Below are positions 2,954 through 12,868 of a DNA stretch of 64,000 nucleotides, in pieces. Below the pieces are notes generated by a model. The model searched no databases. It saw only the letters and a list, made by a program, of their open reading frames with translations, and was not told the origin of the DNA. The translations under genes and the position numbers were made by a program. The first letter of the stretch is position 1, and the number at the start of each line of letters is the position of its first letter. The DNA is from Roseobacter litoralis Och 149 (lineage in GTDB: Bacteria; Pseudomonadota; Alphaproteobacteria; Rhodobacterales; Rhodobacteraceae): assembly GCF_000154785.2 (NCBI RefSeq), contig NC_015730.1, positions 2,666,001 through 2,730,000 on the forward strand, in the 5' to 3' direction.

Positions 2954-5315
2954 TGCTGAATACCTTCAAAAGAGATTGCGGATCGGTGCGCGCAAGCCGG
3001 ATCGCGGGCCAAATCGCAGCCAGCAGCGCTGCAACAATCGTCAGCAGGCCGAGGCGCAGATAATCGAGCGGAAAGACATACATCGGCAACCGCCAGCCAA
3101 AGGCTTCGACATTGACGACGGCCAGCAAAACCCAGGCCAGCATCAAGCCGACGGGCAAAGCCAGCACACCAGTCAGGGTCGCAAGACAAACCGCGCGCAC
3201 GACCTCAAGCCGCGACAGCGCGCTGCGCGTAAGCCCCAAGGCCCAGACCGGCGCCAGTTGCGGCAAGCGCATCGTCGCCAGTGTCAGCAGGCTGATCAGG
3301 ATGGCAAGCCCGGCCACAGAAAGCGTCAGCACATTCAGCGCTGCCGTCACGGAAAACGTTCGCTCAAAGACCTGCATGGAAAACTGTTTGAGATCGGCCT
3401 GATTGATCAGCGCATCCTCCCCCAGCCCAAAGCGGTCGCGCAAATCGTCGGCCAGCGCCTCGGGCGTGTCCGTGCGCACCCCGAACCGCAGGCGTGGTAC
3501 ATCCGGGTAACGCATCGAGAACAGATCCTCGCCCAGCACCAGTTGGCCCACCGCATTCCCGTAATCGCTGTAGATACCGATCAAACGATCCCCGGTGGGC
3601 AATGTATCCCCCACCTGCCAGTCCTGCCGCCGGGCCAGTTGTTCGTTGATCAGCGCACCCTGCCCTGCGGCCAGCAAATCCCACACCTGTGCATCGGCGC
3701 TGAGCAACGGCCAGTTTTCGCGGTAGGTGGCATGATCGCGGATGCCAAAGACTTCAGCCGGAAGCCCGCCGAGCCGCGTGTCAATCGACACAATTGGCAA
3801 GACCGCCTCCGCCTTGTCCTCAAGATAGGCCACCAAGTCCGCAGCTTGCTCTGTATCCTGCGCATTGACGTAAAGCTCCGAGGCCAGCCGCTGGTCAAGG
3901 TAGTCCACGAAGGTCAGCCGAAAACTGGACACCATGGTGGAGACCCCGATATTGGCCGCCATCGCCAACAGCAAAGCCATCAGCGCCATCGACAGCCCCG
4001 GCAATTGCTGGCGGCTGTCCGCCCAGAACCACTGCACCAAGGCGCGTTTGCTGTGGCGTTCGGCAAAGCTCAGACATTGCGCCAGCAGAAAGGGCAGCAA
4101 CAGTGCAGAGCCGATGAGCAAACAGGCCAGCAAGGCAAAGCCAGCAACCAGACCCTGCCCGAAAGTGGCAATCGCAACGCCTGCGATGAACAGCCCAGCC
4201 GCGATCAGCGCCAGCCACTGCCCGGCGGCGAAAGCCCCGATGCTCATCGCACGCGGGTGGTTAAATGAGAGCAACGGCATATAGGCCAGCTTTGTCAGGG
4301 CCGCTGCCGCCGCAATCGCCGTGCCCCCCAACGCCATGGCCAGCCCCGACAGCCACCACGCTGCGCGCAATTGCAACTGTCCCGCGACTTCGGCCCCGTA
4401 AAGACCGCGCAAGGTCGCCGCCACATCCGGTAACAAGGCCGCCGCGATCACATAGCCCAAAGCCACACCTGCGCCACCAGCCAAGAGGGCGAACACCCCC
4501 AACTCCAGAATAAGCAGCAACATCAACCGCCTGAGCGGCATACCCAAAGCGCGCAGGGTCCGGAATACCGCCCGGCGCTGTTCAAAGGCCAGCCCAACCG
4601 CGCCGTAGACGATGAAGATCCCCACAGCAAAGGACAACAGACCGAAGGCCGTGAGGTTAAGATGAAAGCTCTGCGTCAGGCGCGCCACATCCGCCTGCAC
4701 CGAAACCTCGGCAATGCGATACGCGTCCGGCAAGGCCCCAAGGCCCCAGGGACGCTGGTTACTGACCAGCAGCCGCCTGATGTCCCCCTGTTCGCCCAGC
4801 AATCGGTCCGCCTGCGCGATGTCCATCAGGATGTTGCCGCGTGGTCGGTTTTCATCCACCCGCAAGGTCATTCCCGGCAGCGTCAGCCCGATGTCATCCG
4901 GGTGTGCGAAACCGACCGGATCATCGCCGATCATGTCGGGAAACCCACCATCCTCCGAAATACTTGCGGGCAAGGCCACAGGAAAGCTCAGCGGGTCAAT
5001 GCCGACGATGCGCAGTTCAGCACCGGCAATATCAACCGTGCCTTCCAGAACCGGGCTGACCGGCCAGCCAAGCCTGCGCAGGGTCACATATTCCTCGACC
5101 GTGAAGCTGCTGCCATCTTGTTTCAGGATACGGTTTGTGTCGCCCGCCCCCAAGACATCGGAGGCAGAGGCGTAGCTCGCGCGCGCTTCGGCGTTGATCG
5201 CCTGCACACCCGACCACAGCGCGGTGGACAGGGCCAACCCGGCCAGCAAGGTCAGCAACTGCCACGGATTGCGCCGCCAGTGGGACCAAAGTGCAAGAAA
5301 CCCTTGCCGCGTCAT
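2943..5315 (-). CDS. FtsX-type ABC transporter permease (fused, AttFG-like)
   Basis: This 790-residue inner-membrane protein has a short cytoplasmic N-terminus, a first membrane helix (WQLLTLLAGLALSTALWSG), a large periplasmic region, a central block of helices (residues about 220-460), a second periplasmic region, and a final set of helices ending in TDPQSLLKVFSNER. Two FtsX-like halves in one chain match AttF plus AttG, or a LolC/MacB-type permease duplicated and fused. Such systems use periplasmic loops to handle lipids or lipoproteins. The start overlaps the ATPase stop by 4 bp (ATGA), and the 3' end overlaps the AttH-like gene, which indicates translational coupling. Substrate is unknown. 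Confidence 0.85.
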   Translation of the reverse strand: MTRQGFLALWSHWRRNPWQLLTLLAGLALSTALWSGVQAINAEARASYASASDVLGAGDTNRILKQDGSSFTVEEYVTLRRLGWPVSPVLEGTVDIAGAELRIVGIDPLSFPVALPASISEDGGFPDMIGDDPVGFAHPDDIGLTLPGMTLRVDENRPRGNILMDIAQADRLLGEQGDIRRLLVSNQRPWGLGALPDAYRIAEVSVQADVARLTQSFHLNLTAFGLLSFAVGIFIVYGAVGLAFEQRRAVFRTLRALGMPLRRLMLLLILELGVFALLAGGAGVALGYVIAAALLPDVAATLRGLYGAEVAGQLQLRAAWWLSGLAMALGGTAIAAAAALTKLAYMPLLSFNHPRAMSIGAFAAGQWLALIAAGLFIAGVAIATFGQGLVAGFALLACLLIGSALLLPFLLAQCLSFAERHSKRALVQWFWADSRQQLPGLSMALMALLLAMAANIGVSTMVSSFRLTFVDYLDQRLASELYVNAQDTEQAADLVAYLEDKAEAVLPIVSIDTRLGGLPAEVFGIRDHATYRENWPLLSADAQVWDLLAAGQGALINEQLARRQDWQVGDTLPTGDRLIGIYSDYGNAVGQLVLGEDLFSMRYPDVPRLRFGVRTDTPEALADDLRDRFGLGEDALINQADLKQFSMQVFERTFSVTAALNVLTLSVAGLAILISLLTLATMRLPQLAPVWALGLTRSALSRLEVVRAVCLATLTGVLALPVGLMLAWVLLAVVNVEAFGWRLPMYVFPLDYLRLGLLTIVAALLAAIWPAIRLARTDPQSLLKVFSNER

Positions 5316-6004
5316 GGCACCGCCACGGGTCGCATGGGCGCGTTCGCATCCTGCACAACCCCATGCGACAGACGAATACGCCGCCCCATCCGGGCCGCCT
5401 GACGGGGGGAATGCGTGACCATCAACACGGCCGCACCCGCCTCTGCCGCGCTTTCCAGCATCAGGTTCAAAACCGTATCCGCCGTGTCCTCATCCAGATT
5501 ACCCGTTGGCTCATCCGCGAGGATCAGGCCGGGGCGCGCGGCAAGGGTGCGGGCAATGGCCACACGCTGTTGCTGCCCGCCGGAAAGCGCCTCGGGGTAT
5601 TTGGTCATATGGTCTGCCAGCCCGATCTGTTCAGCGACGTGACGCGCCCATTCCGGGTCGAAGCGTTCGCCAAGTCGGGCATGAAACGCGATATTCGCCG
5701 CGACGCTCAGGCTGGGGATCAGGTTGAACTGCTGAAAGATAATCCCGACCGTTGTGCGGCGCAGCTGTGCAGATTTTGCATCCGACAGACCAGCGACCTC
5801 TAGCCCGTCCAGCACAATGCTACCGCCCGTTGGCACATCCAGCCCGGCGATCAGGTGCAACACCGTGCTTTTCCCACTGCCGGATTCCCCTTCGAGCGCC
5901 AACGTGCCCGCGCGCGGCACCTCAAAACTCACATCCCGCAGAACCGGCACTGAAATGCCGCCAGTCTCATATTCTTTGGCAAGGTGGCTGACCGTCAAAA
6001 CCAT
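5312..6004 (-). CDS. LolD/MacB-type ABC transporter ATP-binding protein (AttE-like)
   Basis: A 230-residue ATPase with Walker [10 protein letters not shown] (about residue 38), the Q-loop [10 protein letters not shown], signature [15 protein letters not shown], Walker [13 protein letters not shown] and the switch histidine in VTHSP. The EPTGNLD wording is typical of the LolD/FtsE/MacB group that works with FtsX-type permeases, and this is the first gene of the three-gene operon. It would power the fused permease downstream. About 180 bp upstream is non-coding and would hold the operon promoter; no clear consensus was picked out. Confidence 0.9.
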
Positions 6005-6183
6005 CGGTGTGTCCCATCAAGACTGCGTTCAGACCAAGAGATGTAGCACCAAGCGCGTATCGCAAGGGCCTATGGGCAAACCATCTGCGGAAATGGAATG
6101 AAAGGGTCGGGAAATCAGTCCAGATTATGCAATTACTCTTTATGATTTGATCCAAGTACGCTGCACAAATATTCGCTCTCACA

Positions 6184-7155
6184 TCACCTAAGGTTCAGCC
6201 CTCGCGCAAGTGCCGTCGCACTGTCAAATCCGGCCTCGACGCGGCCCGCACCGCACCAGTCGCCAAATGCGCCCAGTTTGTTTTCTGTATCCAGCAAGAA
6301 CGGCTCGTCCGTAGGGCGTTCGACTTTGGCGAAGCGCCATTTGTGCAAGCTGACATATTGTGCCTCTTCAACAACCAGACCTGTGGTCTCCTGCACTGCC
6401 TGTGCCAGACTGGCGCGCACCTTGTCGGGATCAGCCTCAATATGCGCTTGGGCCCAGTCATTGCTGGATTGGCAAAGCACACTGAAACCCGTGCTGCGGT
6501 CTGGTTTCGTGCTGTTGACGGCCACCCAGGCCATTGGGCTGTTCAGGACAGTCGCAGCGTCCCAAGCCAAATCCGGCGCAGCGTCAAACCCGAGCATCAA
6601 GCTGTAACAGCCAAGCATTCTGGCATGCTCCAACGCCGGCAGATGCGAAAAACAGGCCGGCATCAGCGCGGCAGATTGTTCAGCGGGCGCAGAGGAGAAT
6701 ACCCAGTCATAGGGGCCCAACACCTCCCCCGCCAGAGACCGAAGCTGCCAATGGTCATCTCTACGTTCGAGGCTCGCGACACGGGTTTCGCGCAGCACCT
6801 CGATATCGCTGGCCATCGCTTTACACAGCGCGTTCATCCCCGGCAAGCCAACATAGCGCGGTGCCGTCCACTGCGGAATAGTTCCCCCAAAACACGTCAA
6901 TCGAGGACGCCACGCCCTGACAACGCCACGCTCAATATGAGGTGCAAGAAAGCGCTGGAAATCCTCGCCCTGTGCTGTGAAATACTGCGCACCGTGGTCA
7001 AATTGGAAGCAATCCGCGCGCCGGGTCGACATTCGGCCACCAATCCCGCGTGATTTTTCCAAAACCGTTACATCGGCCGTGGGTGATAACAGTTGCGCGA
7101 GACGCAGCCCGGAAATGCCAGCACCTATGATCGCAATACGTGGTCGTGATGTCAT
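6184..7155 (-). CDS. FAD-dependent amine-oxidase-fold oxidoreductase (renalase-like)
   Basis: This 323-residue flavoprotein opens with a Rossmann dinucleotide motif (IAIIGAGISGLRLAQLL), then an acidic strand end (VTVLEKSRGIGGRMSTRR) and FDHGAQYFTA. These are hallmarks of the renalase/NAD(P)-binding FAD oxidoreductase family common in proteobacteria. The C-terminal segment LGAFGDWCGAGRVEAGFDSA is the second FAD-contacting motif. Bacterial renalases oxidise aberrant dihydro-NAD(P) isomers; whether this one does is inference. It is monocistronic on the minus strand, and the 1 kb upstream is gene-poor. Confidence 0.8.
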   Translation of the reverse strand: MTSRPRIAIIGAGISGLRLAQLLSPTADVTVLEKSRGIGGRMSTRRADCFQFDHGAQYFTAQGEDFQRFLAPHIERGVVRAWRPRLTCFGGTIPQWTAPRYVGLPGMNALCKAMASDIEVLRETRVASLERRDDHWQLRSLAGEVLGPYDWVFSSAPAEQSAALMPACFSHLPALEHARMLGCYSLMLGFDAAPDLAWDAATVLNSPMAWVAVNSTKPDRSTGFSVLCQSSNDWAQAHIEADPDKVRASLAQAVQETTGLVVEEAQYVSLHKWRFAKVERPTDEPFLLDTENKLGAFGDWCGAGRVEAGFDSATALARGLNLR

Positions 7156-7380
7156 GTTCTTGACCTTTTGATCCGCATGACTGGGGATTTAGGTCATGCG
7201 ATCTGCGTTGCCAACACTCATCGATCCGGGAGTATCGTCGCGGGTGCGATTAAAACGGTATCTGTCATGGGAATTCTATCAGACCGTGTCAGACAGGTGC
7301 TATCGGTATCTCACGAGGACCAACGTTCTGGTATCAGGTTTTTCTGAAATTCGTGAATAAACCTTACGAAAACCAGTTGG

Positions 7381-9438: not shown

Positions 9439-9469
9439 TTGACACTTGTAATGTCAACATTTTCTGACA
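9439..9469 (+). promoter_or_regulatory. Nested palindromes upstream of pucBA, including a PpsR/CrtJ-type TGT-N12-ACA site
   Basis: TTGACA (9439-9444) and TGTCAA (9452-9457) form an inverted repeat with a 7-base spacer, and TTGACA also matches a -35 box. Overlapping this, TGT (9452-9454), twelve bases and ACA (9467-9469) fit the PpsR/CrtJ repressor consensus that controls puc, crt and bch genes in purple bacteria. The site lies about 120 bp before the pucB start. A repressor here would overlap the putative promoter. No convincing -10 box was identified, so the promoter itself is tentative. Confidence 0.55.
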
Positions 9470-9585: not shown

Positions 9586-9741
9586 ATGTCCGACGACCCA
9601 GACAAAGTTTGGCCGACCGGTCTTACACTACTCGAAGCCGAAGAAGTTCACAGTTACCTGATTGATGGTACCCGTGTCTTTGGTGCAATCGCACTTGTTG
9701 CGCACATGCTCGTCGCTGCGTCGACGCCGTGGCTCGGCTAA
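9586..9741 (+). CDS. pucB: Light-harvesting complex 2 (LH2) beta subunit
   Basis: A 51-residue antenna polypeptide, the usual length for LH2 beta. H22 ([12 protein letters not shown]) and H40 (ALVAHM) are 18 residues apart, as in known LH2 beta chains. H40, in the A-x-x-x-H context, is the expected magnesium ligand for the ring bacteriochlorophyll. One transmembrane helix spans about residues 29-48, followed by the terminal STPWLG. A GGAGAA ribosome site precedes the ATG. It is first in the operon, 12 bp before pucA. The gene is shorter than many ORF cut-offs and easily missed. Confidence 0.95.
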
Positions 9742-9753
9742 GGGAGAAAAAAC

Positions 9754-10110
9754 ATGAACAATGCAAAAATGTGGCTTGTTGTTTCCCCCTCTGTCGGCGT
9801 TCCAGTATTTCTGGGCGCAGTCGCTGTAGGCTCATTCGCAGTACACGTTGCTGTCCTGAGCAATACCACCTGGGTATCTGACTTTTTGTCAGGCAATGAA
9901 CTTGGAAGCGGCGCTGCACAAGAAGCGTCAGCAAAAATCCTGGAAAACGCAGACAAAGACGTGGCAAACGCCTCTTTCGTTCTTCCATCTGCGGAAGGTG
10001 GCCAGCAAGTTCTTGTGGTTATGCCAGACGGCACGACGGCAATGGCGATGTTGCAATCACCGGCTCTCGTACAGGCAAGCGCTACGCAGCCTGTAACGAT
10101 AGAACAATAA
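9754..10110 (+). CDS. pucA: LH2 alpha subunit with a long C-terminal extension
   Basis: The protein has 118 residues, about twice the typical 50-60 of LH2 alpha. Residues 1-45 are a standard antenna: MWLVV-P-VGVP, a membrane helix, and H31 (SFAVHVAVL) as the bacteriochlorophyll ligand. Positions 44 and 45 are F and L, the pair that blue-shifts B800-820 complexes, instead of the Y/W pair of B850. Residues 50-118 are a soluble, Ala/Gln-rich tail (SAEGGQQVLVVMPDGTTAMA) that would lie on the periplasmic side; its role is unknown. GGGAG precedes the start. The tail is intact coding sequence, not a frameshift artefact, because it ends at a clean TAA before a hairpin. Confidence 0.93.
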   Translation: MNNAKMWLVVSPSVGVPVFLGAVAVGSFAVHVAVLSNTTWVSDFLSGNELGSGAAQEASAKILENADKDVANASFVLPSAEGGQQVLVVMPDGTTAMAMLQSPALVQASATQPVTIEQ

Positions 10111-10146
10111 CGCAAGGTCCCTCGTCGCTACGGCGAGGGACTTGCG
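10111..10146 (+). promoter_or_regulatory. Intercistronic stem-loop between pucA and pucC
   Basis: CGCAAG-G-TCCCTCG pairs with CGAGGGA-C-TTGCG across a loop of about eight bases. It starts directly after the pucA stop and has no T tract, so it looks like a processing/stability or attenuating hairpin. In related purple bacteria a hairpin here stabilises abundant pucBA mRNA relative to downstream genes. That role is inferred for this organism. Confidence 0.7.
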
Positions 10147-10210
10147 GCACCCATACCTGCGGGGTCATTGCGCCAGTGGGTTCAATTTGAATTAGAATGG
10201 CGGGAGGATA

Positions 10211-11668
10211 ATGTTCGAGTATCGCGCATTTGCCTTACGAAAGCTGGTATCGGTCGCCCCGCGTTATTTACCATTCGCGGATGTCGCCACCGAAGAAGTA
10301 CCGCTTTCCCGCTTACTACGGCTATCTCTGTTCCAAGTCACCGTTGGCATGGCCATCGTGCTGCTTGTCGGAACTTTAAACCGCGTCATGATCGTCGAAC
10401 TCAGCGTTCCGGCGACGCTCGTCGCGATGATGCTCGCCCTGCCCTTGCTGTTTGCCCCCTTCCGCACGTTGATCGGCTATAAATCCGATGTGAACGTTTC
10501 CGCGCTTGGGCTACGGCGGGTCCCGTTCATCTGGAAAGGGACGCTTTATCAATTCGGTGGTTTTGCCATCATGCCTTTCGCCCTGCTTGTCTTGTCTGGC
10601 TACGGTGAGGCGGTCGATGCGCCACGCTGGATGGGGCTGTCGGCGGCAGCGCTGGCGTTTCTGCTGGTTGGGGCCGGTGTGCATATGGTGCAGACCGTGG
10701 GCCTTGCGCTGGCCACCGATCTGGTCGCGGACGAAGATCAGCCAAAAGTCGTGGGACTGATGTATGTCATGCTGCTGGTCGGCATGGTGCTCAGCGCGCT
10801 GGTCTTTGGCACATTGCTGGAAAACTATTCGCCCGGGCGCCTTATTCAGGTCATTCAGGGCGCGGCAGTTGTGACCGTCGCCCTGAACCTTCTGGCGCTT
10901 TGGAAGCAAGAGGCCCGCGATCGGGTCCGTGCCCAGAAAATGCAAACAGCGCAGCACGCACCTTTCCGTGAAACATTGGCCGAACTTGTCAAGAAACCCG
11001 GTCGCAAGCGGCTTTTGGTGGTTATTGCGCTTGGCACCTTTGGCTTTGGGGCGGCCGATGTGCTGCTTGAGCCTTACGGCGCACAAGCACTTGGTTTTTC
11101 CGTGGCCGAGACAACACGGCTGACCGCCCTTCTGGCGGGAGGCACATTGATCGGCTTTGGCATCGCCTCACGCGTTCTGAGCACGAATGGCGCACCGACC
11201 CGTCTTGGGCTGATCGGTGCATTGATCGGCATACCGGGGTTTTCCGGGATCATCCTGTCGGCCTTTGGCGGCGGCGCGCCCTTGTTTCTTGCCGGAACGC
11301 TTGCAACCGGCATTGGCGCAGGCCTCTTTGGGCACGCCACTTTGACCGCCACCATGCGCTCGGCTGAGCGTGATCAGGTTGGCCTTGCATTGGGCACCTG
11401 GGGTGCGGTTCAGGCAACGGCAGCTGGTGTCGGTGTGGCGCTTGCAGGCATTGTGCGCGACGTCATCGTCAACATGTCCGCATATACAGACCTGCCCGCA
11501 CATGCCCCTTACAACGCGGTTTTCCTGATCGAGATTGTTTTCTTGGCGCTGGCATGCGCTACACTTATACCCCTGTGCGGCAAAGCAAACAGTACGCAGC
11601 ACCCAAATATACACCAACCCAAGCGGTCCATGCCGGATTCGCATCCTAAATCGGCGGAGGCATCATGA
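10211..11668 (+). CDS. pucC: PucC, LH2 assembly / bacteriochlorophyll-delivery membrane protein
   Basis: A 485-residue MFS-related membrane protein with about 12 hydrophobic segments. LSLFQVTVGMAIVLLVGTLNRVMIVEL and the FRTLIGYKSD loop are typical of the PucC/LhaA/BCH2 family, which is needed for LH2 assembly in the inner membrane. A good GGGAGG ribosome site lies just before the ATG. It follows pucBA after a 100-bp hairpin spacer and overlaps the next gene by 4 bp (ATGA), so the two are translationally coupled. Confidence 0.95.
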   Translation: MFEYRAFALRKLVSVAPRYLPFADVATEEVPLSRLLRLSLFQVTVGMAIVLLVGTLNRVMIVELSVPATLVAMMLALPLLFAPFRTLIGYKSDVNVSALGLRRVPFIWKGTLYQFGGFAIMPFALLVLSGYGEAVDAPRWMGLSAAALAFLLVGAGVHMVQTVGLALATDLVADEDQPKVVGLMYVMLLVGMVLSALVFGTLLENYSPGRLIQVIQGAAVVTVALNLLALWKQEARDRVRAQKMQTAQHAPFRETLAELVKKPGRKRLLVVIALGTFGFGAADVLLEPYGAQALGFSVAETTRLTALLAGGTLIGFGIASRVLSTNGAPTRLGLIGALIGIPGFSGIILSAFGGGAPLFLAGTLATGIGAGLFGHATLTATMRSAERDQVGLALGTWGAVQATAAGVGVALAGIVRDVIVNMSAYTDLPAHAPYNAVFLIEIVFLALACATLIPLCGKANSTQHPNIHQPKRSMPDSHPKSAEAS

Positions 11669-12714
11669 CACAAGTCATTACGCGATATTTTGAAAACGCG
11701 GCACAGGCGTCAATGATAAAACGAACGCTCGTAGTGGAACGTTTTCCCGGGCGAGACCTGAAAGTCTATACCGAGCCGAATGGTCTGGTCGAAGCACTGA
11801 GCGCTGAAAACGTCGATCCTGAAACTGCCAAAGCATACAAAAAGAAAATGGCATCCGGCGGCGCGGTTCTGTTGGCCAAAGCAACCTATGTGCCTTTGGG
11901 CGCTGCAAGGATGACCCGCGAAATCACTGCCAGAATGGGTGCGGCCGACATGGGCGATTTGACCGAAGAGGTCTACGTCAAGGATCCCCCCGGCAGAACT
12001 GCCAGCGTGTTGAGCGGGCACCCTCATATGTTGTCGCGCAGACGCGACCCTGACTCCAAGACCTATCACATGGCAGATTGGCCCATCCCCCTGATCAGCC
12101 GTCGCAAGCCCTCCGATGAATTTGCCATTCCGCGGCATGGGCGCATGGCCAATTTTCCCATCCCCCTGCTCAGCAAACGCAAGCCAAAAGACAACTTTGC
12201 CTTTTCGCGCCACGCGCGCATGGCCAATTTCCCAATTCCATTGTTGAGCAAACGCAAACCTTGGGAGGGCTTTGCATTTCCGCGCCATGCCCGGATGGCC
12301 AATTTCCCAATCCCGCTGCTGAGCAAGCGTAAGCCCTATACCGGATCAATGATCGGGCGTCACCAGCGTATGGCCAACTGGCCCTTCCCCCATCTGATCA
12401 ACGGGAAAACGGGCACGAACTCCTTAATTCCGGGCGCGCCCCGGATGGCGAATTTTCCCATTCCCCTGCTCAGCAAGCGCAAGCCTGCGGACAAGTTTGC
12501 GTTTGACCGTCACGCCCGGATGGCAAATTTCCCGCTGCCACTGCTGAGCAAGCGAAAGCCCGTTGATAAATTCGCGTTCCCGCGTCATGCGCGGATGGCG
12601 GATGCGATATTGCCCCTGATCGTGAGGCGTGCCGATACCGAAACCACCGAGGCAGATGCTGCGCGTTTCTCATTCTCCAAGCTGTTTGGGTTTCCAACGC
12701 TGCTGCGTCGCTGA
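11665..12714 (+). CDS. puc-operon protein with eight 25-residue MANFPIPLLSKRKP repeats (function unknown)
   Basis: This 349-residue protein overlaps pucC by 4 bp. Residues 1-110 look like a small alpha/beta domain (TRYFENAAQASMIKRTLVVE, AKAYKKKMASGGAVLLAKATY). From M136 eight units of exactly 25 residues begin at 136, 161, 186, 211, 236, 261, 286 and 311. The consensus is MANFPIPLLSKRKP, three variable residues, then FAFxRHAR. Unit 5 and the last unit have diverged. There is no signal peptide or clear membrane helix; the units are basic with a short hydrophobic patch and usually one histidine. Its operon position suggests a role in LH2 assembly, stability or membrane association. It is not recognisably PucD or PucE of Rhodobacter. 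No function is claimed. Confidence 0.9.
   Translation: MTQVITRYFENAAQASMIKRTLVVERFPGRDLKVYTEPNGLVEALSAENVDPETAKAYKKKMASGGAVLLAKATYVPLGAARMTREITARMGAADMGDLTEEVYVKDPPGRTASVLSGHPHMLSRRRDPDSKTYHMADWPIPLISRRKPSDEFAIPRHGRMANFPIPLLSKRKPKDNFAFSRHARMANFPIPLLSKRKPWEGFAFPRHARMANFPIPLLSKRKPYTGSMIGRHQRMANWPFPHLINGKTGTNSLIPGAPRMANFPIPLLSKRKPADKFAFDRHARMANFPLPLLSKRKPVDKFAFPRHARMADAILPLIVRRADTETTEADAARFSFSKLFGFPTLLRR
12070..12633 (+). repeat. Eight in-frame 75-bp tandem repeats inside the puc-linked gene
   Basis: ATG-GC-AA begins each unit at 75-bp steps from 12070. Units encoding the same FPIPLLSKRKP use different codons: TTTCCCATCCCC, TTCCCAATTCCA, TTCCCAATCCCG, TTTCCCATTCCC. Protein identity with scattered synonymous changes points to old repeats kept by selection on the protein, not a recent slippage expansion. 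Confidence 0.9.
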
Positions 12715-12806
12715 CGCGCCAACCTGTCATCTGCGCGGGCTGGCAGAAGCCTGAGAAACACGCGCATAGCTGTCATTCCCAAACGGTCTGACGCAGCTGA
12801 GACTGA

Positions 12807-12850
12807 AAAGGCAAAGGGCTGATCCGCGAGGATCAGCCCTTTGCTTTTTC
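12807..12850. terminator. Bidirectional rho-independent terminator between puc and mnh operons
   Basis: GCAAAGGGCTGATCC (12811-12825) pairs perfectly with 12830-12844 around a GCGA loop. It is flanked by AAAAG on the left and CTTTTTC on the right, so either transcript ends in a U-rich tail. It separates two convergent operons. Confidence 0.92.
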
Positions 12851-12868
12851 AACTGCCATCGGACCATA

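Follow-up and report, generated by a model that had tools for sequence, protein, structure and literature searches.

What kind of protein is encoded by the gene that closes the light-harvesting complex 2 (LH2) operon of Roseobacter litoralis Och 149? The gene is the last open reading frame (ORF) of a puc operon with the order pucB-pucA-pucC-orf, located in a 64,000-nucleotide stretch of this genome (hereafter the window; NC_015730.1, positions 2,666,001 to 2,730,000 of the forward strand, assembly GCF_000154785.2), and a large part of its product is built from repeats. Our sequence analysis indicated that this product is probably a third (gamma) LH2 subunit, in which a PucD-type domain is fused to an enlarged PucE-type chain. 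The computed basis of this reading is a two-step repeat homology, homology of the N-terminal half to an ORF of Rhodobacter aestuarii, placement in the puc operon and repeats that are old and selected; location, stoichiometry and effect on LH2 are what we infer. The gene and its parts are as follows.

11665..12714, + strand: putative fusion of a PucD-type domain and a PucE (LH2 gamma)-type repeat protein, 349 amino acids and about 39 kDa (ORF, homology to short forms)
11665..11994, + strand: N-terminal folded domain, residues 1-110, PucD-like, predicted as beta-alpha-beta-alpha-alpha-beta-alpha-beta (AlphaFold block with predicted local distance difference test, pLDDT, 75-92)
12070..12669, + strand: eight 25-residue units, starting at 12070, 12145, 12220, 12295, 12370, 12445, 12520 and 12595
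12370..12444, + strand: unit 5, a distinct conserved variant (NWPFPHLINGKTGTNSLIPG), by cross-species identity
12673..12711, + strand: ninth, C-terminal anchor motif (FSKLFGFPTLLRR), 26 residues past anchor 8

Members of this family occur in a long form with 25-residue units, in a form with shorter GHLVPGHKF-like repeats and in a short form, mostly near 195-235 amino acids, in which a simple pattern detects 0-4 anchors that are often 23-27 residues apart. A profile of the C-terminal region of short members matched the Rhodobacter capsulatus 'B-800/850 gamma chain' at E 5.7e-19, and the window repeats alone matched the short-form C-terminal profile at E 1.8e-12 over the same region that matches the gamma chain. 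This chain of 118 amino acids, the gene name of which we take to be PucE, has anchors about 25-27 residues apart by eye, as in the window's repeats, and its C-terminal motif FSNTFGLATIQRR resembles by eye the terminal FSKLFGFPTLLRR. PucE is a separate protein with about four anchors, whereas the window protein is a PucD-type fusion with nine, eight of them in 25-residue units. R. aestuarii encodes the two modules as two consecutive ORFs after pucC, and the first of these, which precedes the gamma-chain gene at a position that presumably corresponds to PucD, is homologous to the window N-terminal domain (E 1.7e-17) with shared gene order. The PucD-position ORF is separate in R. aestuarii but part of a single polypeptide in the window, and the two-ORF arrangement suggests that the window gene is a fusion of a PucD-type domain with an enlarged PucE. 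The initial annotation had recognised no described PucD or PucE here, a statement that the relation to the R. capsulatus gamma chain and the R. aestuarii ORF does not support; its question of whether a known family explains the protein has a divided answer, as none in Pfam or NCBIfam covers it and yet it is related to a described LH2 gamma chain. PucE stabilises or paces LH2 ring assembly in R. capsulatus, where loss of pucD/pucE lowers or destabilises LH2.

Structure prediction with AlphaFold (43 sequences for the window protein, 26 for a short relative) gave the N-terminal domain of the short relative an identical order of elements at a block pLDDT of 88-96, and residues 134-349 of the window protein a pLDDT below 50. 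Structure searches returned common folds alone. The window protein matched no Pfam family at E 1 and had just a chance match in NCBIfam (E 0.32), and the YflT (PF11181) profile, which weakly matched 7 of 35 relatives (best E 0.0013), had no match to it at E 1.

The eight units begin at residues 136, 161, 186, 211, 236, 261, 286 and 311 and span residues 136 to 335 with a spacing of exactly 25, as had been annotated, and the net charge across residues 136-349 is +28. The accompanying description of the units as nearly identical in protein holds for units 2, 3, 6 and 7 (84-88% amino acid identity) and fails for units 1 and 4, which are 56-72% identical to each other and to those four, for unit 5 (MANWPFPHLINGKTGTNSLIPGAPR) with merely 32-44% identity to other units, and for the degenerate unit 8 (MADAILPLIVRRAD...), where little is left beyond the anchor. 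Even units 2, 3, 6 and 7 are not DNA copies of one another (71-80% nucleotide identity), and the proportions of synonymous (pS) and non-synonymous (pN) differences among them, 0.58-0.90 and 0.09-0.16, place synonymous sites near saturation. Pooled over the 21 non-independent pairs of units 1-7, pS was 0.69 and pN 0.26, values that support the earlier proposal that the repeats are old and under purifying selection.

Comparison with 43 long homologues extended this pattern across species; because these were hand-picked from long-form loci and the 120 top matches listed, the set is biased towards full length. All eight units were present in 41 of the 43 and one unit was missing in the other two. 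Unit 5 showed a mean identity of 77% to unit 5 of other species and of 33-35% to their units 1-4, 6 and 7, so its position is fixed. Within a protein, units 2, 3, 6 and 7 resembled one another slightly more (0.67-0.76) than different members of this set did across species (0.63-0.67), so a degree of homogenisation occurs. A histidine at unit position 23 was near-invariant in units 1-4, 6 and 7 (39/43, 41/41, 43/43, 43/43, 43/43 and 42/43 aligned long homologues, respectively) and was found in unit 5 of 4/43 and in unit 8 of 0/43.

The operon setting of the gene in the window is as had been annotated: its ATG at 11665 overlaps the pucC stop TGA at 11666-11668 as ATGA, GGAGG precedes the start, and the ORF lies last after pucB, pucA and pucC.

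9586..9741, + strand: pucB (LH2 beta), ORF with gene order kept at related loci
9754..10110, + strand: pucA (LH2 alpha), 118 amino acids with a long C-terminal tail, ORF with relatives at other loci
10211..11668, + strand: pucC (LH2 assembly factor), Pfam PUCC E 1.3e-138

The first two we take to be pucB and pucA from general knowledge of the puc operon. The C-terminal tail of PucA (118 amino acids for the whole protein) is unusually long here and at most Rhodobacteraceae loci that have the repeat-protein gene, and an LPDGT-like motif recurs among the long tails by eye.

The same association was seen across genomes. A search of a large protein set at E 0.01 gave 383 homologues, of which 120 were listed, and names among those listed were 'PucR family transcriptional regulator', hypothetical or uncharacterized. 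At least 46 of 394 Rhodobacteraceae genomes had a match, a lower bound because two genomes scored negative (G147 and G207) carry the gene on inspection. All 46 also had a PucC match, strong in 45, the 46th (G296) having broken puc genes together with a broken copy of the repeat-protein gene; individual inspection left out G051 as well as G015, G074, G083 and G364, the latter four with weaker PucC matches. Homologues were thus not common in genomes without puc genes, a check that covers Rhodobacteraceae genomes, database-only homologues having no gene context. In 48 of 55 cases the matched piece followed pucC within one contig and in the same orientation, and the remaining seven comprised three additional copies (G001, G185, G378) and four pieces at contig ends or broken loci. 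Decayed-looking puc operons were seen at L082 (G126) and L084 (G296), with pucC broken along with the gene copies, and at L067 a long-form then a short-form copy stand in tandem after pucC, at 5172-5855 and 6066-7169 in one genome.

Outside the Rhodobacteraceae, profiles built from members of that family alone found members about 2 kilobases or less from pucC (E 3e-10 to 4e-26) in Hoeflea, Halieaceae, Granulosicoccus, Kiloniellales, Rhodovibrionaceae, Roseiarcus, Lysobacteraceae and Chromatiaceae, including many metagenome bins. With an added profile of 11 distant members, 56 of the best 80 loci taken from a PucC scan of named genomes held a member or a PucE-like ORF (11 by construction). Stand-alone repeat modules that lack the N-terminal domain were observed divergent upstream of pucB in a Rhodobacteraceae bin (L177, 3742-4149, - strand) and in Rhodovulum euryhalinum (L179, 3725-4120, - strand; L117 is taken as the same stretch), and these are candidates for free gamma chains.

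A further comparison is offered by the LH2 gamma of Rhodopseudomonas palustris, whose six repeats stretch out as a ribbon close to the cytoplasmic side. The Ser of each repeat holds a bacteriochlorophyll, and the chain adds six bacteriochlorophylls and raises 800 nm absorption; the authors report this type of gamma in Rhodopseudomonas only (PMC9618040). This chain (PDB 7zcu chain S) and the window family share tandem short repeats with a Pro-Leu-Ile/Leu core and, as proposed for the window protein, an extended course close to the cytoplasmic side, which makes it a candidate for a protein that works alike; unlike the window protein it repeats every 16 residues, has six repeats, is 97 residues long in the PDB chain and lacks an N-terminal domain. 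Four of 18 distant members (L167, L173, L178 and L181) scored 12-19 bits against it and ranked at 0-0.4% of 1000 column permutations, and for L167 and L178 it was the best match among PDB sequences (E 0.0062 and 0.023). The remaining distant members reached at most 5.5 bits, and the 52 unrelated control ORFs that scored (150 submitted; non-repeat proteins) a maximum of 2.4 bits. As 8 of the 52 controls ranked under 5%, the rank test alone is lenient, and weak gamma matches need caution since the gamma query, run on whole genomes, also picked up unrelated repeat-rich ORFs, at E 1.2e-4 and 0.003. The likeness of the four distant members is suggestive only, and a shared origin of the ribbon and the distant family members is possible. 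The stand-alone modules L177 and L179 showed no resemblance to this gamma.

Several results weigh against a gamma subunit. Direct comparison of the window protein with PucE gave no significant match (E 8.9 by phmmer, E 0.19 at best by blastp), so the homology link is a two-step one through the short members, and a profile of the 43 long members gave PucE E 0.10-0.23, which the best shuffled PucE equalled or bettered. Searches of PDB, Pfam and NCBIfam yielded no useful match to the window protein, and at E 1 it had no match to the R. palustris gamma, the relation of its repeats to that chain not being significant. Against the same chain 30 of 53 Rhodobacteraceae members scored, with at most 4.9 bits and two at a rank under 1% (controls 1/52), PucE reached 0.4 bits, and neither the profile of 11 distant members nor L168 found it. 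The fused gene was not found at any of seven examined Rhodobacteraceae LH2 loci with a short PucA (L114-L120), profiles A1 and A2 also giving none, and 24 of the 80 named pucC loci were without a detectable member; among these are all eight loci that carry the label of a Betaproteobacteria or Burkholderiales group, and some on contigs that end early. With many LH2 operons lacking the fused gene, LH2 as such does not need it. Finally, three genomes have extra copies distant from the puc genes; these second copies (L072, 1142-2179; L078, 6264-7361; L080, 6499-7689) are of the long form, with the short form beside pucC, and those of L078 and L080 have repeats of MAKFPFGHLVPGHKF type.

If the window protein is a gamma subunit as proposed, it would be made alongside PucC at the membrane, and its N-terminal domain may recognise PucC or nascent LH2 and deliver the repeat chain during PucC-assisted assembly. 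The PucE-type chain, which presumably grew to eight 25-residue units and a ninth anchor at its end, would follow, basic and unstructured, the rim of the LH2 ring on the cytoplasmic side, where its aromatic-Pro-x-Pro-Leu-Leu anchors could dock on successive alpha-beta pairs, acidic lipid head groups might help to hold it, and the chain would stabilise or pace ring assembly. The suggestion in the initial annotation of a scaffold that touches the ring remains plausible on this account, and the annotated tie to the LH2 operon is supported.

Alternatively, the protein may act together with PucC in the assembly or targeting of LH2 and be absent from the mature ring, its repeats serving as short linear motifs that hold several alpha and beta chains or lipids and then release them. 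The translational overlap with pucC in the window, the overlap or short gap found at many related loci, the disordered, basic repeats and the folded N-terminal domain of aligned members would all suit such a factor, but the R. capsulatus relative is named a B800-850 gamma chain in UniRef, i.e. a component, and some repeat modules stand alone with no folded domain (PucE; L177, L179). We regard this alternative as unlikely.

A stronger form of the gamma-subunit reading, with which it can hold together, is that the protein binds pigment in full, as the gamma of R. palustris does, with an extra bacteriochlorophyll ligated by every unit and added absorption near 800-806 nm. The R. palustris precedent, the four distant members that resemble it above controls and the near-invariant His of units 1-4, 6 and 7 point this way. 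Units 5 and 8 lack this His, as do many short members judged by eye, and the R. capsulatus gamma is, to our knowledge, pigment-free. When the P-L-L/P-L-I anchors are aligned by eye, the place of the Mg-ligating Ser, which precedes the Pro-Leu-Ile/Leu core by three residues, is taken by Phe or Trp in units 1-7 of the window protein and by a residue other than Ser in unit 8; the scores of unrelated repeat-rich ORFs with the gamma query also count against it. According to a review, R. litoralis, Dinoroseobacter shibae and Hoeflea phototrophica each have just one peripheral band, at 804-806 nm, and such single bands are tied there to the F44 L45 motif of the alpha chain (PMC12654162). The gene was found in Hoeflea related to Hoeflea phototrophica, and the single band is compatible with extra pigment on the repeat protein without being evidence for it. 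Taken together, we consider pigment binding by every unit quite doubtful. Two bins of Halieaceae, of which we take Congregibacter litoralis to be a member, carry the gene as well. For Congregibacter litoralis itself one study gives LH2 as not detectable (PMC2654016).

More improbable still is an extended reading based on the nine evenly spaced anchors, a number that would equal that of the alpha-beta pairs in a nine-membered LH2 ring and make the chain a molecular ruler. A full-circle gamma of this kind would close or count the ring, with unit 5 as a half-way break and the conserved His binding further bacteriochlorophylls that contribute to the 806 nm band, and PucE, the fused short forms and the ribbon of R. 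palustris would belong to a single superfamily of LH2 straps that vary in length. A transcription regulator, the label on some NCBI and UniRef homologue entries ('PucR family transcriptional regulator'), is hardly credible, as neither Pfam nor NCBIfam gave the window protein a match to PucR or to a helix-turn-helix domain at E 1, and the structure matches listed indicate no DNA-binding family.

The remaining features of the operon are non-coding.

9452..9469, + strand: TGT-N12-ACA palindrome upstream of pucB, by pattern match alone
10111..10146, + strand: hairpin between pucA and pucC (z -4.2 versus shuffles, 10108-10165)
12804..12851, + strand: strong hairpin with a T-rich arm 3' of the repeat-protein gene (z -7.8 versus shuffles, 12795-12860)

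The palindrome is of a kind that we take to resemble PpsR/CrtJ sites, and such matches occur in the window near chance frequency (13 versus 10.95 expected). The first hairpin is likely an mRNA processing or stability element and the second likely the operon terminator; terminator-like sites at 12804..12851 are present on both strands, with a region total of 5 versus 4.8 expected.

LH2 is usually depicted with alpha and beta chains alone. The R. capsulatus gamma chain is known and little studied, and a long, repeat-built and PucD-fused relative of it is what is new here. The database labels of its homologues (hypothetical, transcription regulator) hide their relation to LH2, the PucR label being unsupported by our domain searches. 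If the gamma-subunit reading is true, the old observation of PucE in R. capsulatus would extend to a broad family, and the near-fixed repeat number would allow direct tests of whether the chain counts the ring and binds extra pigment. The antennas of many aerobic anoxygenic phototrophs would then hold a third subunit that is absent from most structural models.
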